Assembly (NCBI RefSeq): GCF_026210795.1
Contig: NC_089442.1
Coordinates: 2,108,001-2,172,000 of the forward strand
DNA: 64,000 bases
Direction: 5' to 3'
Source of the DNA: Rhizophagus irregularis
Taxonomy: Eukaryota; Glomeromycota; Glomeromycetes; Glomerales; Glomeraceae
Below are positions 1-17,170 of the stretch, piece by piece. The position numbers and the translations under genes are program-made. Numbering within the stretch: position 1 is the first letter of the stretch; each line of letters begins with the position of its first letter. The notes below the pieces were generated by a model. The model worked only from the letters and a program-made list of their open reading frames with translations. It was not told the DNA's origin and did no database searches.

Positions 1-479
1 TTAACCTAATTTTGATTGAATTTGCTAAAACTCAAATGTGAGTTATACATCAGAAAATTTTTTGGAGAGCAGATCTGCACAAATTTTCAGAAATTATATT
101 TGCGCAGATCTTATACCCTGACGCAAAATATTAGAGGAAAATTTTAATAAAAAACTGCGCAGATTTTATAAATAACAAAGTTCTGCGCAGATTTTTAAAT
201 AAAAAACCTTCAAAATACCTCAGCAATTTTTTTCAGTAAAAATCTGCGTCACAATAATACAAATTAATTTATTGCATTAATTACTAATTTATTTATATAA
301 TCAAAATTACTTTTTTATTATATATTAACAAGTTTACAAATACAATTGAAATCTATTACTAGTCATTGCTATTTATCATCTCTTTACTACACATTTACAT
401 GTTTTTAATGGTTTGGACATTGTTCCAGTTGGTTCGATTCCAATAAACAACAAAATAAAATAGAAAATCAGAGATATTT

Positions 480-3260
480 GTTAGAAATAAGAAAATCATT
501 TCAAAGTTATTACTTTCGAAATGTTTGACACAAAATCTCAGGATCTAAAAAATAAAGTAAAATGAACGTAAGTAGAATGTTCGTTAAAGAAGAATAAAAA
601 AAAAATTATAAAGAATTTTGAAGATATATCTTCAAATTCTTTCATCCAGGAGCCAGAGAAAAAAACCCTACAGAAAAAAACAACTGAAATGTTAGTAAAC
701 GTTTCGCAAATTAAAAAACATGAAAGAATTTTGAAGGAATTTTACCTTCGAAATTCTGTCCAAAAGTCGTAAATCTGCAAAAAGTAAAAGAAAAGACAAA
801 TGAAACGTTAGTAAATGTTTCGTTAAACATTAAAAAAAATTAATTTTGAAGGTAAATACCTTTGAAATCCTGAAAAAATCTAGTCTGGTTCGTCTAAAGA
901 AGCCCAGCGTCCCTATATAAAGAAGAAAGAACGTTAGAAACGTTCTTTGAAAAAAAAAATAAATTTTAAAGTTTCACAACTCTCGTTGTGAAACTTACCA
1001 TTTACCCGTTTTGGAAGCCTTGGAGTACCGAAACCTACAACAAAAAAGAAAAACAAAACGTTAGCTAACGTTTCGTTTAAATAAAAACAAAAAAAACAGA
1101 ATTTCAAAGGTTACCTTCAAAATTCTGTTCAGGGGGCATCTAGAGAGCCGTATTTCTACAAAATACAAAAATGAATATTAGAAAATGCTTCGTTAAGTAT
1201 AATTATTAAAAAAAATTTTTTTCAAAGGTTTCACCTTCGATATGGGAGATCGAACTCATTTTCAGCTTTCTTTACCTAAAAAAAATAAAATATGAATGTT
1301 AGTTAACGTTTGTTTAAATAAAAAAGAAAAAAAAAATTTGAAGGTTTTACCTTCGATATGGGATCCCAGAATTTGTTTTTGGATTCCCTTGCCTAAAAAA
1401 AAGTAATACGAACGTTAGTTAACGTTCATCAATAAATTAAATAAAAAAAATTTTTTTTATGAAGATTTACCTTTGTATGGAAAAACCTTCGTATGGGAGT
1501 CCAAGTTTTCGGCTTCCTTTATCTAAAAAAAAAGGAAATACGAACGTTAGTTACGTTCGTCAATAAATTAAATAAAAAAAAATTTTTTTTTACGAAGATG
1601 TTACCTTTGTATGGGAAAACCTTCGTATGGAAGTCCAAGTTTTTGGCTTCTTTTATCTAAAAAAAAGGAAATACAAATGTTAGTTACGTTTATCAATAAA
1701 TTAAATAAAAAAAATTTTTTTTTACGAAGATTTTACCTTTGTATGGGAAAACCTTCGTATGGGAGTCCAAGTTTTTGGCTTCCTTTATCTAAAAAAAAAG
1801 GAAATACGAACGTTAGTTACATTCGTCAATAAATAAAAAAGAAAAAAAAAATTTGAAGGTTTTACCTTCGATATGGGAGTCTGGAACTCGTTTTCGGATT
1901 CCTTTACCTAAAAAAAAAGACAAAACGTTAGAAATGTTTTGTCAATAAATTAATTAAAAAAAAATTAATTTTCGAAGGTTTGTTTTACCTTCGATATGAA
2001 AGTCTGGAACTTATTTCAGCTTCCTTTATCTGAAAAAAAAGAAACGAAACGTTATAAACTGAACATTTCGTTAATAAATTAATTAAAAGAAATAATTTGA
2101 AAGTTTTACCTTCAAACAGAACTTTCAAATGGGTCCGGAACATACCTTCAGCGTTCTGGACCTATAAAATACAAAAACGAACGTAACTAACGTTTGTTAA
2201 AGTTAAATTAAAAAAAATATTTTGAAGATTTTTACCTTCGAAATAAACATCTAGAGCTATTCTTCAGTGTCCAGGATTTATAAAACGTAAAAATGAACGT
2301 TAATTAACGTTTGTTAAACAAAAATATAAAAAAAATTTGAAGGTAAAACCTTTACCTTCGAAATAAGAGTCCAGAGCTATTCTTTGGCGTCCAGGACCTA
2401 TAAAACGTAAAAACGAATGTTAATTAACGTTTGTTAAACAAAATATAAAAAAAAAATTTGAAGGTAAAACCTTTACCTTTGAAATAAGAGTCCAGAGCCA
2501 TTTTTTGGCGTCGGGACCTATAAAATACAAAAACAAATGTAACTAACGTTCGTTAAAGTTAAATTATAAAAAAAAAATATTTCAAAGATTTTTACCTTCG
2601 AAATAAACATCTGGAGCCATTTTTCGGCGCCCAGGACCTAAAAACATGAAAAACAAACGTTAATTAACGTTCGTTGAAATAAAATTAAAAAAATATTTCG
2701 AAGGTAAACTTTACCTTCAAAATAAACGTCCAGAGCCATTCTTTGGCGCCCAGGACCTAAAAACATGAAAAACGAATGTTAATTAATATTCGTTGAAATA
2801 AAATTAAAAAAATATTTCGAAGGTAAACTTTACCTTCGAAATAAATGTCTGGAGCCGTTCTTTGGCTTTCAGGACCTAAAAACATGAAAAACGAATGTTA
2901 GTGACGTTCGTTAAACAAAAATATAAAAAAAAATTTCAAAGGTAAAGATTTTACCTTCAAAATAAGAGTCCAGAGCTGTTCTTTGGCGTCCAGGACAAGA
3001 AAATAATAAAACCGAACGTTAGACAACGTCCGGTATATAAAAAATATTAGTTTCGAAGTTTTACCTTTGAAATGGAGTCCGGAACTGGTACTTTCAGCGC
3101 TTTGGACTTACAAAAAAAAATAAAACGAACTTTAGTTAATGTTTCGTTAAATTTTTTTTTTGAAATAGAGTTCAAGACGTATCTTTTGTGTTCTGGACTA
3201 ATAAAACGAACATTTTCTAACATTCGTTAAATAATATTAATATCAAAGTTTGAAATAGAG
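480..3260. repeat. Satellite array, unit about 120 bp
   Basis: About 23-25 diverged tandem units, with spacing of 115-130 bp. Between 2281 and 2998 the phase marks fall every 117-121 bp. Each unit carries a small hairpin (GAAGGT, A-rich loop, ACCTTC), an AACGTTAGTTAACGTT-type palindrome, and a conserved block around CCAGAGC..TT.GGCGTCCAGG. The short reading frame at 1611-1832 is only the array read in one frame. Confidence 0.9.
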
Positions 3261-3689
3261 TACCTTTGGCGTTCTGTAAAATGTATTTTTTGAAGGAAAT
3301 AAAGGAGTCCAACATCTTTTTAGTCCGAATCTCCTGCAGGTTGCAGATTATGTGCTGAATGTTGGACGAATTTGCTTTAAAGACTCTGAACCTTGCAAAT
3401 AAATTTTTTTTTTAAAAAAAAAATTTCTCTGATAAGTTTCAAAGCTTAAAAAACTATAATAGAAATATTTTTTCTTTGGAATCTTTAACAGATTATTTTC
3501 TAAAAGGTATTGTAAAAAAAATTATTTCACAAAGTTTTTTCTTTAGTAATAAGTGTTGTAGAAAAAATATTTTTTAAAGTCTTGTAAAATTTTTTTTTAA
3601 AAAGTATTGTAGAAAAAATCATTTAGATATTAAATCAAGTTAGAGTTAATTAAAGTTTAAATGATGAAATTGCAGATCGAACTGATATT

Positions 3690-3935
3690 TTAATGAAAAA
3701 AAAGCAAATATCTGCAAAATTGCAGACTTCCGCATAAATTTCACATAAAAAAAAGCAGAAATCTGCAAAATCGCAGACTTTCTGCAGAAATGCATACATA
3801 AAAAATCAGAAACATGCAAAATTGCAAATTATTGCATAACTTTGTAAAAAATAAAAAGTGAAAATCTGCAAAATTGCAGACTTCCGCATAAATTCACAAA
3901 AAAAATGCGGAAATCTACTAATTTTACAGATCTCC
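3690..3935. repeat. Short tandem repeats with CTGCAAAATTGCAG core
   Basis: Four to five units of roughly 55-60 bp, each with ATCTGCAAAATTGCAGA and CTTCCGCATAAA. They form the subterminal zone of the right end of the surrounding TIR element. The CTGC...GCAG content echoes the CTGCGCAGAT motifs near the left end. Confidence 0.75.
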
Positions 3936-3972
3936 GCAGTTCTGCATCTTAAAAAATTTCCTGATGTATATG

Positions 3973-4649
3973 TGATGTTCAGGGTCCTATTTGTTTTATT
4001 CTTTTATCTGTTTTATTTTTTTCATCTGTTTTATTTCCTTTATTCTTTTCATCCATTTCATTCTTATTATTTTTTTATTTTCATCATTTTCATTTTTATT
4101 ATCATCTGTTCTTTTTTTATCATCATCATCTATTTTATTTTCATCATAATCATCCATTCCATTCTTATTATCATCACTTGCTTTATTCTTACCATCCGTT
4201 TTATTCAATTTCTGTTTCTTCTTTATTTCTTTTTGTATAACCTTAATTTCTGTTTCATTTCTTATTTTTATTTTTCTTCACCACTTTTTATTTAATTTCA
4301 TTTCTTTTCATTTCATTTATTTCTTTATTTATTTTGATCCTTTTATTCCTAATTATTCTTTCTCTTTAAAAGGTAAAATTGATTTATAATCTGCCAATAT
4401 TAAATAATCAAATAAATAATTTTTAAAACTATTAATAAACTATTTTTTTAATATTATAAAAAAAAAAAATTGTGAATCAAATCGGTAAACTTTTAATTAA
4501 AAATTAGCCAATTAAATTTTAAACATAAATCACATGACAGAATGTGAGACTTAAGCATTACAAGGGATGCTAGATCTAAATTTACTCATATTAATAATTT
4601 GTTTTAAAAAATTAAAAATATTAAATTTTTATTTATATTATTATAAAAC
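3973..4649. other. Low-complexity spacer
   Basis: A T-rich stretch built of TTTATT and ATCATC microsatellite-like runs (about 3995-4330), followed by AT-rich sequence. Both strands can be read openly here only because of the skewed composition. No gene is supported. Confidence 0.6.
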
Positions 4650-4915
4650 TAACATGGTGTAAGATGATGATAGAGAAACACTTACTAATACTGATGATAA
4701 TGATGAAAAGAAACTAATTTCAAAAGTTTTACCAAAGGAAGTTCTTGATATAATTAAAAAGGTAATTCTCTTTTATAAATAACTACCTATTGATAATAGG
4801 TTTAAAACAGATGATTTTAAAGTTTTTAGACATTATATTTCAAATTTGAAAGTTCATTATATTACATTTTTACAACAAAAGTCAATTGAAGATTATTTCC
4901 CTTCTAATTAAATAT
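4650..4915 (+). pseudogene. Decayed 3' end of a transposase-like gene
   Basis: Conceptual translation gives acidic sequence (TNTDDNDEKKL), then a segment with KEVLDIIKK. After one or two in-frame stops come FKVFRHYISNLKVHY and the terminal QQKSIEDYF before a stop. The last residues fit a PIP-box-like pattern (Q..I..YF), which is known at the C-terminus of pogo-like transposases. No catalytic core is left upstream, and the assignment to a transposase is inference. Confidence 0.35.
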
Positions 4916-5489
4916 TTTAATATTGTATAATTTTTGATTTTTAGTAATCTATATATATATATATACTTAATATAATTAGTTAATTACATTTTAATTTTAT
5001 AATTTTATAATAAATAATATATTTAATAATTGATATATTGTACATTTCTTATATTAAAAAATTTTTTTTTGTTCATAGTTACATTTCATCATAGTTATTA
5101 AATATGAAATGTCCCAAATGTGTGACTATGGTAAGAGTTGATTGTACCATTAAAAATTGCTAATAAAAACTGGAATTATTTTATAATAAATATAAATATA
5201 AAATTTAATTTATTAATAAAATAACTTAAATAATATTAGAAAAGTAATATTATATAATTATAATTATATGATAATGTATTACTTTTTTATATAGAAATTA
5301 CTATATAATAATATTTTATTGAATTAGAATATATTAACATTAATAAAGATAATAATAAAATTATTAAAATTATATAATTAAAATATAATGCAAAAATAGT
5401 ATAAGATGAAAAATAAAAATAAATTTATTTTTAAATTTCAATATATTTTAATAATATAATTAGTGTAACAACTATAATATAGTAAGTAG
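4916..5489. other. AT-rich spacer, no gene seen
   Basis: Nearly pure A/T with short AT microsatellites. No reading frame, RNA gene or clear repeat end was found. Confidence 0.5.
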
Positions 5490-6868
5490 TATAATTAACC
5501 TTATTGATAGTAAACAGTTAGAAATAAAGTTGGTAAAATTTAAAGGTCACTCAGGAGTCAAGGGCAATAAAGAAGCAGATAGGGTGGCAAAAAACAACAC
5601 AAAGAAACCAACTTGCATCAATATTAAAGATTTACAACAAAAGGATTTAATATACGATATCTACTGGAATGGCAAAAGAGTTAACAGAAATATCAGAAAA
5701 TTTATAGATAAATTGTATGAAACTATATTAGATGCTGCATAATCTCTCAACCGTACACATAAATCAGTCTTTTCAGATACAACTAACACAATAGAAAAAG
5801 AGGTTATTTAGACACTGTTTAAAAAAAATACAGGACACAACTATACAACATCACTAACAAATGACAGATTCATCAAATACTTGAAACTTTTAAATTGTTT
5901 ACTCTCAACTCTAGAAATCATAAAGGAAAGAAGATATGACTTATATGGAGATGTAAAATGTAGGTTTTGTCTTGAAGAAAATGAAGATGATAATCATATG
6001 ATATATTGTCAACAGCTCAGTAATAAGTGAACAATTGTAGCTGACAACACTGTATGTAAATGTAATCAAATAATTAAAAATTTTTTATTACAAGAAAAAC
6101 ATATTCAATTAAGTCAAGAAGACACACAATAACTGCTCTCAACTTCTTTATTAACACAACTGTTGTTAATTTAAATATGCCTATTCCTTATGTTTACTTA
6201 ATGATTAAAAGTTTTTTTCCAAAAGAAAAATACAAGGAACTTGAGACCATTGTTAAGTCAAAGAGAATAACATTAACTATTGCAGCTCTTTTCTTGGAAG
6301 TATTTGTTAGTGAATTTTACAATATCATCTGGCAACCACGTTGTAAGGCAGTAGCAGAATAGGAACATACTAAAGACATAAAAAAACAAGATTTAAGAAA
6401 AAGGCCATTAGCACATCAACGCATTGCATACAAACGGATTCTAACCATACAAACAGAAGAGGGCACGTTTGACTTGGAAAAAATGAAAATTTTGAAATAT
6501 AATGAACAATGGTCAATAGCATTAGAAAAAACAAAACAATACATTAACCAATTTATTAGAGAAGGAAACAGGATACTTTAGAAGGTATATAATAATACAA
6601 AAATATACAAATATAATATAATCCTTCTTTTTTTTTTTATCTAAAGAGTAGTGAAAGCATTTACTTAAGCCTTATGAAATAGTGATCCTATATAATTTAA
6701 TAGCTACTATTGAAGAATATAGGTGAATTTCATAAGGTAATAGTAGGGCACAGGAGCAATCTTATAGATGGGGAACTGGTTTGGAGTTTTAATAAATTAG
6801 TTATATAACAGATGTTTTTATATAATTAATAAACTCACAAATTGCATTACCTTGGTTAAAAAAAAAAT
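5490..6868 (+). pseudogene. Decayed LINE 3' part (RNase H C-terminus, zinc knuckle, 3' UTR)
   Basis: Translation with several stops gives the C-terminal part of an RNase H domain (VKFKGHSGVKGNKEADRVAK, around 5530-5590). A C..C...H....C zinc-binding stretch follows (CRFCLEENEDDNHMIYC, around 5957-6010), then IIWQPRCKAVAEWE (around 6325). The same order of elements is present in the LINE at 60.8-62.9 kb, so the two are relatives. Everything upstream (reverse transcriptase, first half of RNase H) is missing. The 3' UTR ends around 6860 with ATTACCTTGG followed by an A-run, as expected for target-primed insertion; its last ~115 bp recur at 49048-49167. Inactive by stops and truncation. Confidence 0.75.
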
Positions 6869-7169
6869 AATATAATTAGTAATATTGCAAAATTAATTAC
6901 TTTTTAAAATTTTTTATTGGAATATTACTATTAAAAATATTAATAAATTATTATTTACAAATTATATATTAATTTAAATTTAATTGAAATTATAGATTTT
7001 AATTTAAATTTCAAGGTTTTTCTCTTAATATATTTCAAATTTTTAATTCATTAGTATAAATAATAATTTTATAATTTTTGATTTGTTCATCAGTTAAAAT
7101 TTTTTCAGTAAACGGAAAAGTTTGATCATGGATAAACTATTTCAGATTTCATTGTTAATGAAAATTATT
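6869..7169. other. AT-rich spacer, no gene seen
   Basis: AT-rich sequence between the LINE tail and the end of the decayed transposase. Nothing supportable was found. Confidence 0.4.
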
Positions 7170-9400
7170 GGAAGTGTATTTGGAATTTCATTAATAAGTA
7201 TACCCAATCTTTGTTATATAACAGCCTGTGTTTTTTAAATTGATTCAGAATTAGAATTAGATACAATTCTGGTTTTCATCTTAACAATTGTGTATTATTT
7301 GCTGTTTTACATTTTTTTAAGGCTTCAGCAATATAATTAATAACTTGTTTAATGTCTAATTTATTTCAGTTCTATATTAAGTAAATATTAGTAATTTTGT
7401 AATAACACACGAAAAAAGAAAAAAAAAAGAAAAAAATACTTACTTGTATATATCAGCACCTTGATCAAATTGTTCAATTAAATGTCAAATATATAGTTAT
7501 TTGTATTTGACCTACATTCAATAATTATAAATAAAATTTTTAATAAATATAAATTTAATAAATAAAACTTTATTATTTGTCCTTTAGACAATATATCTGA
7601 AAAAAAATTTATCACATGATTACATGAATTTTTCTGTCTGTTTATGTAAACATCATCCAATAATTATCTCAATTTTTGCTCTAGATTTCCATTTTCTAAT
7701 AAACAAATATATTACTACATCTTAAAATTTTGAATAATTCTGATATCTATAGATTGAAGTTTTAATATCATATTATTTGGTAAAAGAAATACAATTCGAA
7801 TATTGGTAAGTTCAATACTATTATTGTATTTTTTTTTTCTCTTTACTATTTTTTCTATTCAATAAATCATAACCTTTTTATTTACTAGTATTATTTGTTT
7901 CATTATTATCTAAAGATTCTTCAGATTTATCATTAGTTAAATTATCTTTATAATCATTGTCATAATCATTATCAATTTCATCATTTTTATCAATAGAAGT
8001 AACGAATTTATATGACAAAGCATTATCAATAATTAAAACAACATATCAGCTTTGAAAATGAAATTCATGATTCAGTTTACTAAGCCATTCATTAAAAATA
8101 TCATGTTTCATCCATGCCTCTTTACACAGGTCGAAAAGTAAAAAGTCAGGCATCAATTAGTTACCAATCAGTCACTATTTACTAATCAGGTAGCTGATTG
8201 GTGACTGATTGGTGACAGATTGGCATTTCGCCAAATATATACTGTTACTAATCAGGCAGTTTGCTAACTTTTGATCCAGTGATCAGAAAAGGATAGTAAA
8301 ATCGCATTTCTAGAATTAATACTTAATGAGATATTAAGTAAAATATAAAAATAAAAATGTATTATTTATATTTTATTTAATTTTTTATTAACTATTAATC
8401 CTAAAAAATATGATTTTACTACCATTAGATTCGTCTTATTAAGACGATTCCAATGAGCTATATTTCATCCTTTTCTGATCACTGGATCAAAAGTTAGCAA
8501 ACTGCCTAATTGGTGACTAATTGATGCCTGATTTTTCACTTTTTGACCTGTGTTATTTACTTTGTATGTAACTGAAAGTCAAAAAGTTTAAATGTTATAA
8601 AAAACTCGTAACTTTAAAGATTTACCAATTACTAATGATTTCAATTTGTGATTTCCAGATGCATTTGATGCTAATATTACGATCACTCTAGTTTTATTCT
8701 ATCAGTAGAAAATAAAGAAATTTTTATTAGCACACTACTATTAACACAAAAATAACAAGACATATACAAATAAGAATATAACAAGAATATTATATTAGAA
8801 ACCTTACTTTTTTAACTCCATTAATTGGTTTATGTGTAAGAGTTTTTTAGGTGTCATATGAAAAAATAAACCAGTTTCATTTGCATTGTAGATATCATCT
8901 AAACTATATCATTGTAAAATTCACTAAAGTTTTTTTCATTTTTAAAGTAATATTTTTAATGATGTATTCACTAATTCTCCATGTAATTTATGATGTCAAA
9001 GGTGATTTTTTTTTAAAAATTGTGCAATCCAACTATTTGAAAAAGTTAAGGTATTTTCAAGTACATCTAATTATATGCAAAAAAAGTAGCTTTTTTTCTC
9101 AAAATTGCATCTAAAATAAACATCTGACTACTAAGAGCCTGACCAACCCAAATTTTCAATACTTTATTAATTTGTAAGACTTTAACTTGGTATGAATGTT
9201 TAAAAAAAATATATAAATACTATTATCTTCAATTGTTAAGAAGATATTTTTCTTTTTTAATATTTTAGAAACTGTTATTCAATTCATATTTAAAGTCCAT
9301 TGTATATTAAAAAAAGAAGTTATTTCATTTTGAATTTTTTTGGGATTATTATTAATGTAAATACAAATTTCTTTACATTGTAGTTTAATTAAAAAAGTAC
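7170..9400 (-). pseudogene. Decayed pogo/Tigger-type (CENP-B/DDE_1) transposase
   Basis: Read on the minus strand, broken frames line up in the order of a pogo/Tigger transposase. First is the helix-turn-helix DNA-binding part (EICIYINNNPKKIQNEI near 9370; TVSKILKKK near 9265), then SNSWIAQFLKK (about 9030). The first catalytic block follows as DDIYNANETGLFF (about 8880), where the family normally has NADETG, so the first Asp is Asn here. An intron with proper borders spans 8699-8807. Next come LASNASGNHKLKSLVIGKS (about 8650), AWMKHDIFNEWL (about 8105), VVLIIDNALS with the second Asp (about 8030), and LTNIRIVFLLPNN (about 7790). The TI.NCW-like end lies near 7300. There are many stops and frameshifts. 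A MITE (8125-8552) sits inside the coding part. The gene is dead; no TIRs were identified around it. Confidence 0.8.
8125..8552. mobile_element. CACAGGTCG MITE, copy 1 (3-bp TSD TTA)
   Basis: Long inverted termini start CACAGGTCGAAAAGT and carry reiterated ATTGGTGACTGATTGG motifs. The element is flanked by TTA on both sides (8122-8124 and 8553-8555). A second copy lies at 56820-57350, flanked by TGT. Termini beginning CAC and a 3-bp duplication fit a CACTA-like or PIF-like origin. This copy lacks about 44 bp in its left arm compared with copy 2. It interrupts the decayed transposase. Non-coding. Confidence 0.85.
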
Positions 9401-10088
9401 ATGTTTTTTTTGTGAACCTTAAAGGTAACATATAGTATTACTTTTAAAGTAATATTTTTAGATAATTTTTTTTGGTTTAATAGAAAGTAGAAATACACTA
9501 AACTTTTTTGTTTTAAAAAAAGGTACGTGTTCACGTTCTTTATTTAAGTAATAAATCAATTTTAACATTTTCATGTGATTGTGATTATAAACGATATGTT
9601 TTAATTATTAGATTTTCTAAAATAAGAGTGATAGTGATTATAGGTAAAATGTGACTATAGATGATAGATTTTATATATGAAAATTCAGGACATTCAACTA
9701 AAATGATTATATACAAGAATGTAACTATAGTGGTAGTAACTATACTATACTTTATATACAATTTCTTTTTATAAAACTGCAAATGCACTGTGATAAAAAA
9801 AAAATTAAAATATATACTGATATAATAATTTGCAGAATTATAAATTAAAAGTAAAAAAAGTTTTAAATTTTATAAAAACTGGTTTAATAATTAATTTATA
9901 ATTTATTTAAAATTAATAAAAAATACTAATATATAATATTAAAAAATTATTATAGTAAATCAATTAAAAAATTAATAAAATATTAATATAATTTTTGCAA
10001 CTATTGTATTTTAGTATTTATATATTTTTAATAATTAAAGATTAAAATCTAACATTATTAAAAAAAAATTTTTTTTTAATTAATATAT
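9401..10088. other. AT-rich spacer, no gene seen
   Basis: May include the eroded 5' end of the transposase up to about 9600. Otherwise AT-rich without a supportable feature. Confidence 0.4.
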
Positions 10089-10809
10089 TATCCTTTAAAC
10101 CATTTTGCAGGCAAATTTGTTGCAATTTCTAAATTAGGATAAATGATGCCTTTAATTTTATTCAGATTGTCACATAATTTTGCAGTCAAATTGATCTACA
10201 TTTTAGTTATAAATTATATGAATTAGATATGTGATTAATCATTAAAATTAGACGAAAAATTAACTTGCGAAAATAGTATTAGAATTTTTATATAATAAAA
10301 TCTAAACTTTTCTTACCATATTTTTTCTCTATTTGAATATTTATTATAACTTTTTATTTTTATTATAAAAATTTTGCATTATAATAAACAAAATAAAAAT
10401 AAAAAAAAATATTTTTTAATAGTATATAATTAATTTAAGTTCTATATAAAGTCAAAATCTTACTCAAAATTATATTAATAAAAGTTATTTCTTATACCAA
10501 ATTCTACATATTCTATTAAGCTTTTATATAATTACAATTAATTATCAATAAAATCATTAAAGTTAAATGCAAAGTTTTTTAAAAATTTGTGATTATCTTA
10601 AAATACAACTTTTAACCAATGGATAATTTTTGATTTTCTAATATATAATTTATTATAAATGATAATAATTGCTGCATAATATATAATTTAAATTATTTTG
10701 GAAAAAAATTTAATTAAAATTACTTTATTTTTCATAAAATTAGATGAGAGCTGAAATTTAGTAAAATTACAGGCAAATTTACCTGCAATTGCTTATAGTT
10801 TAAAGGATA
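10089..10809. mobile_element. MITE-like inverted-repeat element (TATCCTTTAAAC ends)
   Basis: The left end reads TATCCTTTAAACCATTTTGC followed by AGGCAAATTTG. The right end, reverse-complemented, reads TATCCTTTAAACTATAAGC followed by AATTGCAGGTAAATTTGC. The interior (~670 bp) is AT-rich and non-coding. A partial copy of the left subterminal region is visible at about 60500-60570. Target duplication not resolved. Confidence 0.6.
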
Positions 10810-11509
10810 GTAAAATATTATTATATATATTTTTTTAATTTTAAACTATTGTTTACATTACTTTTTAATATAAATCTTTAAATAAATTTAGCAAATCTTA
10901 ATCTCAAATTTAATTATAATTTATTAAAATTTTTAAAATAAATTTTAATACTCTTTACTTAACAATCTAATAAAAATAAATCATAGATTATTGAAATAAA
11001 ATTTCAAATACCTTTAATATAATTTACATTAAAATTTACATATGTAAAAATTATATATATATTAATTCTAATTAAAATTACATATTATAGAAATATTTTT
11101 TCAAAATTTATTATTTTATATACTCTTATTTTTAAAAAATCTATTAAATAAATTTTAATAAAATTTATATCTTTGGATTTGTCTTAATAAGAGAAATCTA
11201 AAAGTAGTAAAATTATATTTTTAGTATTAATATTAACCAATTATTGTAAAAATGCATTTTATATATATTAAATAATTACAAATAATTATTGTATTATATA
11301 TTAATAATAAAAATATAAATTTACTATTATTAAATATGTTATAATAAGAAGATTTAAAAGAGATATAATTTATTTTTATAGAATTGTTAAATAATAAGTA
11401 AATGTATTTTAAAAATTTAATAAATTATAATTAAATTTGAAATTAAAATTTAACTGAATTTATTTGAAAATTTATAATTAAAAAGTAATCTAAATAATGG
11501 CTTAAAATA
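10810..11509. other. AT-rich spacer with one dispersed repeat module
   Basis: Contains at about 11080-11240 a module (TACTCTTATTTTT..., TTTGTCTTAATAAGAG, AGTAGTAAAATTATATTT) that recurs at about 46060-46175 and 51440-51580 and inside the CACAGGTCG MITEs. No gene. Confidence 0.5.
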
Positions 11510-11731
11510 GGATCCCACTTACTTATAAGATAGGTCACCCTCAGGCTTAAGATAAAAATCATATATAAAATTCTTTGCAGATTTTACTATAAAAGGAAAT
11601 TTTATATAACATTGTTATGATTTTTTTCCTTTTTAGCTAATTAACCAATAGAATTTAAGAAAAAAGTAAGATAAAAATTATTAATAAAGGGTTAATTTTC
11701 TATGGTAACCCTTATTATAAGTAAGCGAGGT
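11510..11731. mobile_element. GGATC MITE copy A (interrupted at its right end)
   Basis: Begins GGATCCCACTTACTTATAAG and ends ...TTATTATAAGTAAGCGAGGT. The last one or two bases of its right end are found only after the 1.95-kb element inserted at 11732-13685 (continuing at 13694). Related copies are at 16868/18771 (itself interrupted), 47736-47925 (reverse orientation) and about 59586-59735. A conserved interior reads TTTGCAGATTTTACTATAAA and CATTGTTATGATTTTT. Non-coding. Confidence 0.75.
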
Positions 11732-13685
11732 TAAGGTTGCCTGCCGAAACCTATTTGGCCTAATGCCAAAAGGAGAAACTCCACATATAGTACCGTAACT
11801 GCGAAACTGTGAAACTGCGAAACTGCCAAAACTTGCGAAACTGCCAAAATTTGCGAAACCTTTATAACGAGTTTATCCGTAGTTTCGGTATAATAAATAA
11901 TAATATTTTATATGAATTTCGGTATAATTACAGCATTCCTAATATTTTATTTTTAATTTCAGTCTCTAATAAATTTACATGTAAATAAACAACGTTGTAA
12001 TATTCTAATAATAATATTATTATTGAAAAATCCTATCAAATGCAACAGTTGTGATTTTTTTTCTGGGAATTCTGCATAAAAAAAAAATAAATTAATTAAA
12101 TTTATCAAAAAAAAAAAAATAACAAAACCCTTCTCCCAGTATTTTACCTCGATTACAAAAGTCCGGTCATATTTTTTCATCTGACAATCCTACAAAAAGA
12201 AAAAAAAATCAATTAAATTTATTAAAAAAAAATGATGAAAACACCTTCTCCGACCCTCCCTCACCTTAATTTTAAGAGTCTGGTCATGTTTTTCATAAAT
12301 TATGAAAAAATTAATGAAAAACTTTCACCGGTCCTCCTTTACTTTAATTTATAAATTCGTACATGTTTTTCGTCTAGCAATACTACAAAAAAAAAATAAA
12401 TAAGAAATTTATTAAATATAAAAACAACGAAAAATCTTCCTCAGCCCCCTTCTTTACCTAAATTCTAAAGTCCGGTCATGTTTTTCGTCCAGAAACACTA
12501 CAAAAAAGAAAAAAATAAATAAGTTAAATTTATTAAATAAAAAAACAACGAAAAACCTTTTCTCAGCCCCCTCTTTTACCTAAATTCTAAAGTCTGGTCA
12601 TGTTTTTCGTCTGGCAACACTACAAAAAGAAAAAAATAAATTAGTTAAATTTATTAAAATAAAAAACAACAAAAAATCTTTCCCTCAACCCTTCCTTACC
12701 TCATTTCCAAAGTCCGGTCATATTTTTTGTCTGGAAACACTACAAAAAAGAAAAAAATAAATAAGTTAAATTTATTAAATAAAAAAATAACGAAAAACCT
12801 TCCTCAGCCCCCTCCTTTACCTAAATCCCAAAGTCCGATCATGTTTTTCATCCGGAAACACTACAAAAAAGAAAAAAATAAATAAGTTAAATTTATTAAA
12901 TAATAAAACAATGAAAAACCTTTTATCAGCCCCCATACTTTTTAAACTAAAGTCAATCAGTGTTTTTCGTCTGGCAACACTATAAAAAAGAAAAAAATAA
13001 ATTAGTTAAATTTATTAAAATAAAAAACAATGAAAAATCTTTCCCTCAACCCTTTCTTACCTCATTTTCAAAGTCCGGTCATGTTTTTCATCCGGCAACC
13101 TTACAATAAAGAAAAAATAAATAAATTTATTAAAATGGACCCTTTTCCAGTTTTTTCTTACTTCAAAAGTCCGGTTGTGCTTTTTGTCTGGCAACCCTAT
13201 AAAACGAAAAATAAACTATTACATTTTTTAAATAAAAACTTCCTGTCCGGACCCTTCTTAGTTCTTTACCTCATAATTTTTGTCCAGAAACCTCAATACA
13301 AGAAAAAAGAGATCATCAGATGATTTGTACTACGCAATCTGTCTGATAATCTAACTTTCCTGTACCGGATTGGCGTAAATCATTGATAATTCGATAAATT
13401 CAGCAAATTTCGGCAATTACGTCTATATAAATTCAATACGGCTGAATACGGCATTGCATCAAAAAAAAAATCCATGCTGAAATTAATCATAATTCATAAT
13501 GTTGCTGAAACTATATGTATATCATATGATGTACTACGCTGAAACAGTTATGGCAGCTTAGACAGTTTCAGCAGGTTTCAGCAGTTACGGCATTTCAACA
13601 TTTTAGACCAATTTTGCGAAACTAGTTTCGGCAGTTTCACATACGCCATCCCGCCAAAACCTCCTAGTTTCGGCAAGCAATCTTA
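11732..13685. mobile_element. hAT-like TIR element with satellite core, 8-bp TSD
   Basis: The termini are TAAGGTTGCCTGCCGAAAC on the left and, reverse-complemented, TAAGATTGCTTGCCGAAAC on the right. Both are flanked by the perfect 8-bp repeat AGCGAGGT (11724-11731 and 13686-13693). An 8-bp duplication and ends of form TARNG are hallmarks of hAT elements. Just inside the left end are about five GCGAAACTG(CC) motifs (11800-11860). Inside the right end the same motif occurs inverted (CAGTTTCRGCA, 13560-13650). The core is a ~120-bp satellite. No transposase frame is present, so it would need a transposase in trans. Confidence 0.8.
12150..13300. repeat. Satellite array, unit about 120 bp
   Basis: Nine to ten diverged units with the phase mark AAGTCCGGTCATGTTTTTCG. 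It recurs near 12155, 12271, 12467, 12589, 12708, 12830, 12949, 13071 and 13160, so the middle of the array has a 119-122-bp period. The rest of each unit is an A-rich part (AAGAAAAAAATAAATAAG, TTAAATTTATTAAA) and a C/T-rich part (CAGCCCCCTCCTTTACCT). It is confined to the interior of the surrounding TIR element. Confidence 0.9.
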
Positions 13686-13983
13686 AGCGAGGTCTTTTTA
13701 AAATTAAAAATATTTAGATATAATAATATTTTTACTATAGTATTATTAATTAAAAATTTTTTTTTAATAATACCAGATTTTAGCCTTTAACTCTTAAAAT
13801 ATATAAATATTAAATTTGTTTAAAAATATAATAGTTGCAGAAATTATATTAGTAATTTATTATTTTTTTAAGTATTTAAATATGAGATAATTTATTCATT
13901 GCGTATGCAACATTATCACGCTATGTAATATTATAGCTTGTGTTTTATAAAATATGCGTGCTTAATTAACTGAACAATATATA

Positions 13984-14178
13984 CAGTCAAAGCTCGTTAT
14001 AGTGAATCTCGTTATAGTGAACATTAAGTAAAATCGCGTTATAGTGACCTATTGATTTTTTTCCTTATAATTAATTTCTCTCGATATAGTGAATTTTCTT
14101 AATAAATCTCGTTATAGTGAAAAAAAGGGAAAAAATTATATAGTGGAACGAAAAGTTTACTATAACGAGCTTTGACTG
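13984..14178. mobile_element. pogo/Tc1-mariner-type MITE, TA target duplication
   Basis: Near-perfect inverted ends CAGTCAAAGCTCGTTATAGT, flanked by TA on both sides, total 195 bp. Subterminal copies of CTCGTTATAGTGA are repeated inside both ends. CAGTC ends with TA duplication are typical of pogo/Tigger and other Tc1-mariner elements. Non-coding. A decayed pogo-type transposase lies about 5 kb away, but a direct link is not shown. Confidence 0.9.
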
Positions 14179-14373
14179 TATATAAGTCAGATGAAAATTT
14201 TAAAATTTATTAAGATTAATAAGCAAATTATTTTCATTCTGCTAAGCAAACTCAAATTGTAACATTAAAATTTTTTGCACTACTAAGCAATTTATTTTAT
14301 GACTTCGTAAAATTAAAAAAAATTTCTTGCTAATTTTAATTATTTATATTATTACTTTATTGACAAATTGACA

Positions 14374-15910
14374 TTATTGTATCATATTAATAATGCTATT
14401 TTTAATAGTATTACAGTTAAAATAATTAAAAATACTACGTGCTACTCCTGTTAAAATTAGTGAACTATTACCAATTATTACTCCATTTAAATTAATATGA
14501 TATATAATATTTTGAGAACACTGATGAGTAAATAGTGTATAACTTTCTACAGTTTGACTTGCAAAAATATTGAGATGAATGGGCAAATATACTTGTAATG
14601 AAATATAAGACAAATCTTCAATTTGAGTTACTGCATTTTGGCTATAACAATGGTTACCATAACCTTCATAATACATTGCTATTATTTTAGCAATACAAAT
14701 TTTTGTCCCATACAATGCAATTACATAGTCACTTTGTTGCAATGGAAAATCTTGAGTAATATTTGCCAATTCAACACATATAACTAAATTAAATAATAAA
14801 TTATTAATATTAAAAATTATATAAATAAATTACATGATTAATATTATATTTACTTTTATTTGTAACTTTATTAGTTTGTCTTTGCCTAATTTATGTAAAC
14901 TTGCAAGATTAGCTGTCATTGCCTTCCAATTTTCTTTCTATCACTTTTCACATTGTTTAATAAATTGTACTGCCAGATCATCATTATTCGTAAGATGTGA
15001 AATTATATGACCAGCCTTATTTGGATTAATAGTATTTGTGTTTTCATAACCAATCATATATGCACAATTTTGTCTTTCAATTGGTCTTGAATTATATGCT
15101 TCATGATCCCTTCGTAATTTAATCATAACCAAATAATTCAGCTCTCCTGTTGGAAAAATATATCTAATAGAAGAATCTTTCATGATTATGTTAATATTTA
15201 ATAATCTATATATTAAAAAACACTGCAATCACGTGGGCGTTATGTTTAGATTAACCATATAAATAAGTCATTTGAATTGTGTAACCCTACTCCTATTTGT
15301 CGCCAATGTTACACAAGACCAAAAAAGGAAATTTTATTTCTGGCGAAAAACTAAAATTTTGAGTTACGCAGGATTCCATAAAAGGAAATTATCAGTTACA
15401 CAAATCTCCAAAAAAGGAAATTTTGTCTTCTGTTACTTTTCAGAGAAATTAAAAATTGTTGCTCAAATTTCCAAAAAAGGAAATTCTTTGCAGATCTTTT
15501 AATTCTGGCCAGAATTACATATTAACTGTTGTCGTAGACAACAGGTGAACACTAGTATACTATTAAAAACTTTGATAATGTAGTAATATAATTAAAAGAA
15601 AAATTCATACCATGAGTAAGTTGCTTATTATTAATTATTTCCATATTATCTAAAGATAAAATAACTTGGGTTTGCCGAATTTGATCATCAACATTCTTAA
15701 TGTTTGATAAATCAAGAACATCATCAATTCTTTTGGTAGTATGCTTAGATGCTTAACTAATTGCATCAGAAATTTCTTTATCGATTTCAAAGAATTCATT
15801 TAAATCATTTTCCAGTTCCAAAGTTGGCTTAATTCCAATTGATACTTCCAAATTTTGATCATCTATCATTACAAATGGCAGTAATAGTGAATGATTCATA
15901 TTTGAAGTAG
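14374..15910 (-). pseudogene. Decayed multi-exon gene of unknown family
   Basis: Three minus-strand blocks read as parts of one protein. Block 1 (about 15910-15610) is acidic with DDQNLEVSIGIKPTLELEND, has one internal stop, and ends at a plausible donor (GTATGAAT). Block 2 (about 15205-14855) contains YIFPTGELNYLVMIKLRRDH and two consecutive stops before NWKAMTANLASLHKLG. Block 3 (14790-14374) is open and contains VIALYGTKICIAKIIAMYYE and ISLQVYLPIHLNIF. Between blocks 1 and 2 lies inserted repeat sequence (15255-15540) with four copies of CCAAAAAAGGAAATT. The protein is not recognised; it may derive from a mobile element. Stops make it a pseudogene, unless block 3 is used alone. Confidence 0.5.
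15255..15540. repeat. Inserted repeat with CCAAAAAAGGAAATT motifs
   Basis: Four copies of a CCAAAAAAGGAAATTTT-like motif with TTACACAA nearby. The same motif appears inverted (TTTCCTTTTTTGG, TTGTGTAACC) at 16305-16390 in the neighbouring TIR element. It separates two blocks of the decayed minus-strand gene. Ends not resolved. Confidence 0.45.
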
Positions 15911-15920
15911 GTTTCAATTT

Positions 15921-16578
15921 AAAGATACTGCCTGAAACTTAGTAGTTTCTGAAACTGTCAAAACTGAAACTTGGTAAAACTATTTCTGAAATTTTCTTAT
16001 TTTCCAAAACTGGTAAAACTGATAAAACTAATCTGAAACTGGTAAAACTAACCCGAAACTGGTAAAACTAACCTGAAACTGGTAAAACTAACCTGAAACT
16101 GGTAAAACTAACCTGAAACTGGTAAAACTAACCTGAAACTGGTAAAACTAACCCGAAACTGGTAAAACTAATCTGAAAGCTGGTAAAATTAATCCAAAAT
16201 TTATAATGCCAAAATTATTACTGAAAGTTCAAAATTTGGCCGAAATTATTGATATAATCCTGGCCATTTTTGGGACGTAATTCTGGCCAAGAAAATGATC
16301 AACATCAAAATTTCCTTTTTTGGAATTTTGTGTAACCATTGTGTACCTAATTTTCCAATTTTATTGGAAAACATAATTTCCTTTTTAGGAAATTGGTATA
16401 ACGTCACGTGATAAAATATCATAATTTCGGTCAAATTTTAATTTCGGCCAAAATTAGGGAGTTTCGGGCTAGTTTCAGGAGTTTTGGCTAGTTTCGGGAG
16501 TTTTGGAATAGTTTTGGGTTTAGTTTCAGTTTCGGTTTCGATTTCAGAAACTGAAAAATAGTTTCAGACAGCATCTTT
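15921..16578. mobile_element. TIR element with GAAACTG repeats
   Basis: The left end AAAGATACTGCCTGAAACT and the reverse-complemented right end AAAGATGCTGTCTGAAACT match at 17 of 19 positions. The TGCC(T/C)GAAAC core of the termini is shared with the hAT-like element at 11732-13685. The interior holds a 20-bp tandem repeat on the left. On the right, the motif is inverted (AGTTTCGGG, AGTTTCAG), giving the same subterminal design. No exact target duplication was found. Non-coding; it sits at the 5' edge of the decayed gene. Confidence 0.6.
16010..16190. repeat. 20-bp tandem repeat CTGAAACTGGTAAAACTAAC
   Basis: About eight to nine nearly identical 20-bp units, the middle five almost without changes, so the array was homogenised recently. 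Lies inside the TIR element 15921-16578 and reuses its terminal GAAACT motif. Confidence 0.95.
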
Positions 16579-17170
16579 AGTTAATATCATACCTATTTTC
16601 AAAAATCTTATATTAAAAAGTACTGTTTATAGTTACAAATATGTAAAAAATATAATAAATTGCTCAGTATCCAATAATTGTAAAAAAATATAACATAGCT
16701 TGTTAGAATCATTTCATTGAGATAAATCGAATGATAGTAGTTTTATTTTTCTATTTTGCATAATTAATAGCCAAACATCTTCACATCTCTTATAAGACTT
16801 ATTTTAGCCAATATCCTATTATTCTTAAAAGGCAACTACTAAGTACTTATTTTTTCTCAAGTAGTATAGGATCTCGTAATAAGTCATTTTAAGCCTAAGG
16901 TAAAAATTATATATAAAATTCTTTGCAGATCTTATTATAAAAGAAAATTTTATTTTACATTGTTATGATTTTTATCCTTCATATGGGCTGATTTGTTTAC
17001 CTTTAATTAAAATATTGATTTTATTACATTTTTATTATACAAAATACTACTATATAATATACAGTAAATTAGGAATGAGTATTAAAAAATTTTTATTTAA
17101 TGTTATTATACTATAATTTGGTAAATATTTCTTTTAAATTAATATAATTCTTAGCATTCACTATATATAT

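Follow-up and report, generated by a model that had tools for sequence, protein, structure and literature searches.

Related satellite arrays inside non-autonomous hAT-type, pogo-type and probably Plavaka elements of Rhizophagus irregularis

Miniature inverted-repeat transposable elements (MITEs) that carry satellite DNA are known from animals, and the parts of three reports considered here describe Xenopus miDNA4, bivalve pearl/CvA and DTC84 as examples (PMC9659126, PMC5139131, PMC12628747). According to the same parts, DTC84 has a palindrome close to its repeat junction, and miDNA4 was proposed to have captured a pre-existing tandem repeat. Drosophila DINE/Helitrons are likewise non-autonomous DNA elements with internal (central) tandem repeats, and the foldback element Tetris has tandem repeats within its inverted ends (PMC9659126, table). 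In bivalves, the BIV160/Cg170 satellites are related to CvA repeats, and Cg170 arrays occur in Helitrons (PMC5139131, satellite sections). Here we describe three elements, termed E1, E2 and E3, in a window of 64,000 nt of the Rhizophagus irregularis genome (C14:2108001-2172000), whose ends and arrays were traced through 146.7 Mb on 32 contigs. As in the animal satellite MITEs, a tandem array whose unit number varies lies between the ends of a non-autonomous element. Unlike what the consulted parts of those reports describe, hAT and Plavaka elements are concerned here, one satellite family is found in end types of different superfamilies, and one kind of end carries different arrays. Terminal inverted repeats (TIRs), target duplications and a central core set the elements apart from DINE/Helitrons and Tetris as these are portrayed there. 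The presence of related satellites in more than one transposon context is shared with BIV160/Cg170, but an exchange of arrays among hAT, Plavaka and pogo ends is not described in the satellite sections of PMC5139131.

Since one kind of end is found with different arrays and related arrays are found with different ends, ends and cores of these elements are modular. Specifically, a 121-bp array, often accompanied by a conserved tail of 42 bp, was found between hAT-type ends of two or three kinds and, with a variant tail, between pogo-type ends, and a probable relative of this array that lacks the 42-bp tail sits in Plavaka elements.

All three elements are non-autonomous DNA transposons that occur dispersed in the genome and have defined ends. 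An initial annotation of this DNA had assigned to them a common plan of inverted ends, subterminal motifs and a tandem array in the middle, and all of these components were recovered. Within the first 20 bases, the TIRs agree at 16 (E1, counting from 47), 17 (E2) and 18 (E3) positions. The ends of all three recur genome-wide, with 1094 and 1127 matches for the E2 TIR (at most two mismatches), 83 and 76 (159 in total; at most two mismatches) for the E1 end, whose TIR type is CATCRGGAAATTTTTT, and 16 and 14 (at most one mismatch) for the E3 TIR, while the reversed sequences used as controls gave 0/0 in every case. Of the element boundaries proposed earlier, those of E2 (11732-13685) proved to be exact, whereas those of E1 and E3 had to be moved from 45-3972 to 48-3966 and from 15921-16578 to 15920-16579, respectively. 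The opposite orientation of subterminal motifs at left and right ends is evident in E3 (12 forward copies on the left, 10 reverse copies on the right) but less clean in E2, where seven forward copies lie within ~130 bp of the left end and three reverse plus two forward copies at the right end; loose motifs were used for both counts.

E2 is a hAT element. It is located on the plus strand (1954 bp; TIR TAAGRTTGCYTGCCGAAAC; ends termed hAT-A), its copies terminate at the same bases, and the target duplication AGCGAGGT is present at 11724-11731 and 13686-13693. The TIR pair reads TAAGGTTGCCTGCCGAAAC / TAAGATTGCTTGCCGAAAC, and the four full-length copies that were scored, including that of the window, are 93-100% identical and have identical ends. 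Perfect 8-bp target duplications flank all eight E2 copies fetched (L001-L008). TIRs of hAT elements start with the consensus YARNG, which is matched by the left start of E2, TAAGG; the right end in the window reads TAAGA, most other fetched ends read TAAGG, and the left end of L004 reads TAAAG.

A full-length element with the same ends that codes for a transposase, as envisaged by the initial annotation, was found for E2, while the relative of E1 codes for a Plavaka protein instead (see below). Two elements of 4,480 bp (L037) and 4,431 bp (L039), which are 98% identical, possess E2-type TIRs and perfect 8-bp duplications. E2 matches the transposase-coding element L037 over its first 178 bases with 79% identity (left end, 11732-11908, plus strand) and over its last 150 bases with 75% identity (right end, 13536-13685, plus strand); the remaining matches are short and run crosswise from one subterminal region to the other, and the ends alone are common to both elements. 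A frame of 572 amino acids in L037 matches DUF659 and Dimer_Tnp_hAT (E 3e-5) above the cut-off, and a frame of 214 amino acids gave a zf-BED match slightly below it. Among 80 protein matches retrieved with the hAT transposase, 11 are full-length (572 amino acids), free of stops and 97-100% identical, which makes the transposase source look recent; three of these 11 share the top score, one being the locus of the query itself. The ~120-bp array is absent from L037, in which a 49-bp unit is present in 3.2 copies. L037 further contains, apart from the transposase but inside the element ends, a frame of 122 amino acids that is Myb/SANT-like (positions 3676-4041; PF13837, 2e-10). At another locus (L040:6208-6451), a MITE-like pair of E2-type TIRs spanning 244 bp lies near a hAT-type frame of 471 amino acids with different surroundings.

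The satellite core of E2 (12055-13273, plus strand) comprises 11 matches to the unit profile, spaced mostly 115-129 bp apart, and is followed at 13311-13352 (plus strand) by a module tail, GATCATCAG...CTGATAATCT, that is common to several element types. On its minus strand, the E2-type unit consensus matches one hAT-A TIR variant at 15 of 19 bases (0 of 2000 shuffles of either kind) and the other variant at 14 of 19 (3 of 2000 shuffles). Because of this TIR-like match, the array may offer additional transposase-like sites. As an origin of the satellite, however, the TIR-like stretch was rejected because the E1 unit lacks the match (10 of 19).

E3 (15920-16579, plus strand; 660 bp; TIR TAAAGATRCTGYCTGAAACT) appears from its sequence to be a hAT-like MITE. 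Its array of 8.8 copies of a 20-bp unit was located at 16016-16192 (plus strand) with Tandem Repeats Finder (TRF). The end core TGCC(C/T)GAAAC that had been noted in both E2 and E3 is indeed common to them, and perfect 8-bp duplications flank 4 of 11 E3 pairs as compared with a permuted mean of 0.38, and some other pairs have an offset duplication. Pieces of the E3 interior recur ~43 bp from E2-type TIRs, for example at C1:3120448-3120736 and C3:3178508-3178797.

By contrast, E1 (48-3966, plus strand; 3919 bp; TIR CATCAGRAAATTTTTT in the window copy) is a Plavaka element and not a hAT element; the latter assignment was rejected with 8-bp duplications in none of 12 pairs. Of the satellite-cored hAT class with a fixed unit that the initial annotation had put forward, the class itself, the hAT nature of E2 and a hAT-like E3 thus stand, whereas E1 falls outside hAT and the unit length varies. 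The dinucleotide TA flanks E1 at 46-47 and 3967-3968, and 2-bp duplications were found in 10 of the 12 pairs (nine E1-type and three longer relatives), with a permuted mean of 2.6; the partial loci L015 and L036, which lack the second E1 end, were outside this sample. Target duplications of 2-3 bp are typical of the CACTA/CMC group. According to the relevant part of PMC11075540, Plavaka belongs to this group. The left and right ends of a 6,986-bp element, L043 (Plavaka-coding span 101-7086), are near-identical to those of E1, with TA on both sides, and its frame matches the Plavaka family PF18759 at 2e-23. Two further relatives of 6.4-6.5 kb, L041 and L042, have ends related to E1 and 2-bp duplications; a frame of L041 matches PF18759 at 6.6e-25, and the single frame scanned in L042 yielded only weak zinc-finger matches. 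An apparent duplication, ATGTGA(T)GTT, seen by eye had suggested a Mutator-like element or a Helitron, an assignment that failed once other copies fixed the ends and that was further ruled out by the systematic test, which gave 2 bp, and by the Plavaka nature of the longer relative. Inside E1, the satellite core extends from 537 to 3268 (plus strand; TRF and unit-profile matches), with units of ~116-132 bp. The array mixes units with TRF periods of 116-132, and E1-type copies (L034-L036) hold blocks of ~104-129 bp. Right subterminal repeats with a period of 51 bp and a GCAGAAATCTGC-type motif are located at 3696-3916 (plus strand).

The distribution of the arrays was assessed by scoring 40 of 75 candidate loci for the E2-type array, retrieved with three E2 units as queries, and 40 of 167 for the E1-type array. 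The E2-type array lies between two recognized ends at 27 of the 40 loci and beside one end at four. Four types of ends are represented among the two-ended loci: hAT-A in 10 cases (eight read, two placed by the ends of alignments whose pieces are separated by other DNA), hAT-B in 13 (nine read, four via pattern positions), type C in two and pogo in two. The hAT-B TIRs read TAAGGATGGGCCCTCAAAT / TAAGGATGACGCCGCAAAT, and all nine read copies show 8-bp duplications, one with a mismatch; the type C TIR is TATAYTTCTCCGYGAATTA. A TA duplication and a CAGT-type TIR are characteristic of Tc1/mariner-pogo elements, and the two pogo-type loci (L054, L058), whose ends were resolved by eye, carry CAGTCA... 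ends with TA flanks. De novo end searches at 12 loci returned no candidate at eight (L031, L044, L046, L047, L051, L053, L057, L058) and poor candidates only at four (L032, L045, L054, L055). One end each was recognized at L031 and L055, while L053, with one weak A-like end (three mismatches), was counted as unresolved. In one hAT-B element with an array (L048), the tail was not detected within three mismatches. The family comprising L044, L046 and L047, for which the de novo end search found nothing, has 121-bp-type units in both orientations, as in a foldback element. E1-type arrays lie within 5 kb of a Plavaka end at 34 or more of the 40 loci, a lower bound as distances were measured against ends among the matches listed (100 of 159). 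Long free-standing arrays, in which according to the initial annotation the satellites might have mainly resided if the ends were paired by chance, were seen at none of the scored loci of either array type.

A single profile recovers the arrays inside hAT-A, hAT-B, type C and pogo ends. Units of hAT-A and hAT-B elements are up to 86% identical, and all 13 type C units are closest to hAT-A units, with up to 97% identity. In a comparison of 201 aligned units of at least 85 columns each, the nearest neighbor of 69 of 70 hAT-A units and of all 57 hAT-B units belonged to a different copy of the respective family, and unit spacings recur from copy to copy. This neighbor pattern suggests that arrays ride as blocks and were passed between families. 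Between hAT-A and hAT-B, a stretch of ~80 bp that comprises the unit end and the tail is 90-91% identical, and the likeness ends at GATAATCT; with type C included, the between-family identity from last unit to tail is 86-91%. Elements of hAT-A and type C stay alike for ~200 bp beyond this stretch, and pogo and x3 arrays carry a variant tail. The conserved 42-bp tail is present in 29 copies genome-wide (at most three mismatches; control 0), of which 24 lie between two recognized ends (18 read, six via alignment or pattern positions), three beside one and two have none. At one of the latter two (L060, ~1176-1217), the tail alone follows an A-rich stretch, and neither an array nor TIRs were detected within 2.2 kb.

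Conversely, like ends enclose different cores. In L061, L062 and L063, ends resembling hAT-B (82-90% identity over 90-136 bp) surround 22-27 copies of a 50-bp palindromic unit (CGCCGGAACTATAGGTTCCGGCG) at the place where other hAT-B copies hold the 121-bp array. Ends of hAT-A surround arrays of 113/122 bp in L064 and of 114 bp in L065. Perfect 8-bp duplications are present at all five loci. A 50-bp tandem array of ~7 units (AATATTACGGTTGAAATATTTCG...) also lies in the window at 62980-63374, and it is perhaps the core of another satellite-cored element.

The arrays of E1 and E2 had been called unrelated despite their equal period, a view that probably has to be revised. Their consensus units align on the same strand over nearly the full length with a score of 93.4, which was reached by none of 4000 dinucleotide shuffles, 2890 window decoys and 2230 composition-matched decoys. 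Moreover, the E1 profile finds intermediate arrays, namely those of L046 (27.1 bits), L065 with hAT-A ends (25.7), L054 of the pogo type (18.1) and L064 with hAT-A ends (15.1), each with 0 of 600 shuffles. Based on the consensus comparison and these intermediates, the ~120-bp units of E1 and E2 are likely, though not certain, to be distant homologs. Shared ancestry is the best explanation for the common length of ~120 bp, and the equal period then needs no rule related to nucleosomes or slippage, as had been contemplated. Such rules were abandoned in view of the coexisting periods of 20, 50 and ~104-132 bp, and the unit length is not fixed either, given the 113/122-, 114- and 50-bp arrays between like ends and the 20-bp array of E3.

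We consider it probable that these non-autonomous elements are moved in trans with the satellite as fixed cargo, and that related arrays have been acquired by and exchanged among end types. Transposases of hAT elements would mobilize E2, and probably E3, whereas E1 would depend on a Plavaka transposase. In either case, the enzyme would recognize the subterminal motifs together with the inverted ends and move the element by cut and paste, leaving duplications of 8 bp (hAT) or 2 bp (Plavaka). In E1 and E2, the satellite array occupies the place that the transposase gene has in full-length relatives, and it would travel as fixed cargo, with the same units recurring across copies. Related arrays may have been acquired by several end types and cores also exchanged between families, possibly via template switching or gene conversion during the repair, perhaps interrupted, of an excision gap, and slippage would set the unit number. 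Movement in trans, core capture and core swapping are what we infer from element anatomy and sequence comparison.

Several observations weigh against this model. Neither movement nor capture was directly observed. A clear target duplication is lacking around E3 in the window, and perfect 8-bp duplications were seen in 4 of 11 pairs; the 8-bp duplications of the two type C copies carry one mismatch each; and no reliable element end was found at 9 of the 40 E2-type array loci. The E1 profile scored 4.5 bits on the E2 array, a value that 26 of 300 dinucleotide shuffles and 14 of 300 local shuffles also attained, the score of 13.3 obtained with the E2 profile on the E1 set is marginal in view of a shuffle maximum of 12.8, and an initial test with TRF consensus sequences was weak (24 of 500 shuffles equally good). 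Finally, the E1 profile weakly matches the 50-bp array of L062 (17.5 bits, 0 of 400 shuffles), scoring 13.1 bits on that of L063 (1 of 400) and 9.9 on that of L061 (4 of 400), so that calling the cores different may go too far, should a remote relationship unite all these satellites.

Alternatively, every family might have grown its own array by slippage from internal sequence, and the likeness would reflect convergence on A-rich palindromic DNA. The arrays are A-rich indeed, the 20-bp array of E3 resembles the subterminal motif of that element, the E2 unit has the TIR-like stretch mentioned above, and the E1 and E2 profiles fail to find each other directly. This explanation is nevertheless unlikely, and for the 121-bp family it is largely refuted: a single profile recovers arrays from four end types, the tail is common to hAT-A, hAT-B and type C up to an identical base, the E1 and E2 consensus units outperform all shuffles and genomic decoys, and the E1 profile recognizes an array with hAT-A ends (L065).

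A more speculative extension, to which we give a rather low probability, regards array plus tail as a hyperparasite of transposons, i.e. a cassette that enters non-autonomous elements of the hAT, pogo and perhaps Plavaka types and settles in their interior. If this were true, such a cassette, mobile either through its own mechanism or through targeted recombination, would spread via several unrelated transposases. Closely allied is the idea that the array and its tail form a mobile cassette in their own right, perhaps a Helitron-like one with a hairpin end, which inserted into several transposons. The right boundary at the same base in hAT-A, hAT-B and type C, the variant tail in pogo and x3, the solitary tail copy at L060, and the tail termini GATYATCAG / CTGATAATC, which form an imperfect inverted repeat, are compatible with this idea. 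We regard it as quite improbable, however, as all but two of the 29 tail copies lie between or beside recognized TIR ends, the tail hairpin is not unusually stable (z -1.24; equaled by 28 of 200 shuffles) and the left boundary is undefined; no duplication flanking the module was identified, although none was systematically searched for. That ordinary satellite arrays are flanked by inverted repeats merely by chance is virtually precluded and already refuted by the recurrence of exact ends, by target duplications, by relatives that code for a transposase and by zero controls, even though inverted repeats arise by chance in large numbers in this AT-rich DNA (1569 pairs in 17 kb).

Movement in trans combined with acquisition and exchange of arrays would provide a route by which several transposase systems disperse one satellite family simultaneously, and it suggests that the interior of non-autonomous elements can be replaced wholesale while the ends persist. 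As a single genome harbors both like ends around different cores and related cores between different ends, the origin of satellite MITEs becomes testable by strain comparison. Plavaka and hAT elements have been reported from R. irregularis, with Plavaka being prevalent in several strains (PMC11075540, transposon sections); these are the same superfamilies as here, and the main text of that report contains no words starting with 'tandem' or 'satellite'. Satellite-carrying MITEs as such are already known, but core swapping and a satellite crossing superfamilies did not turn up in the literature searched, where titles and abstract openings gave no account of one satellite common to hAT, pogo and Plavaka elements.

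A few additional features of the window deserve mention. Between E2 and E3, from 13984 to ~14184, a pogo-like MITE, bounded by CAGTCAAAGCTCGTTATAGT ends and flanked by TA left and right, was recognized by eye; an exact search recovered its left end and gave no exact match for the right end. The segment 8124-8553 contains long inverted repeats that are imperfect (51 nt, 94% and 88%), with a repeat of the 11-mer CTGATTGGTGA at 8194. The same 11-mer is repeated again at 57293-57331, and a motif like it is found at the borders of L044 and L046. On the minus strand at 60894-62675, an open frame of 593 amino acids looks RNase-H-like by eye and is perhaps the remnant of a long interspersed nuclear element.

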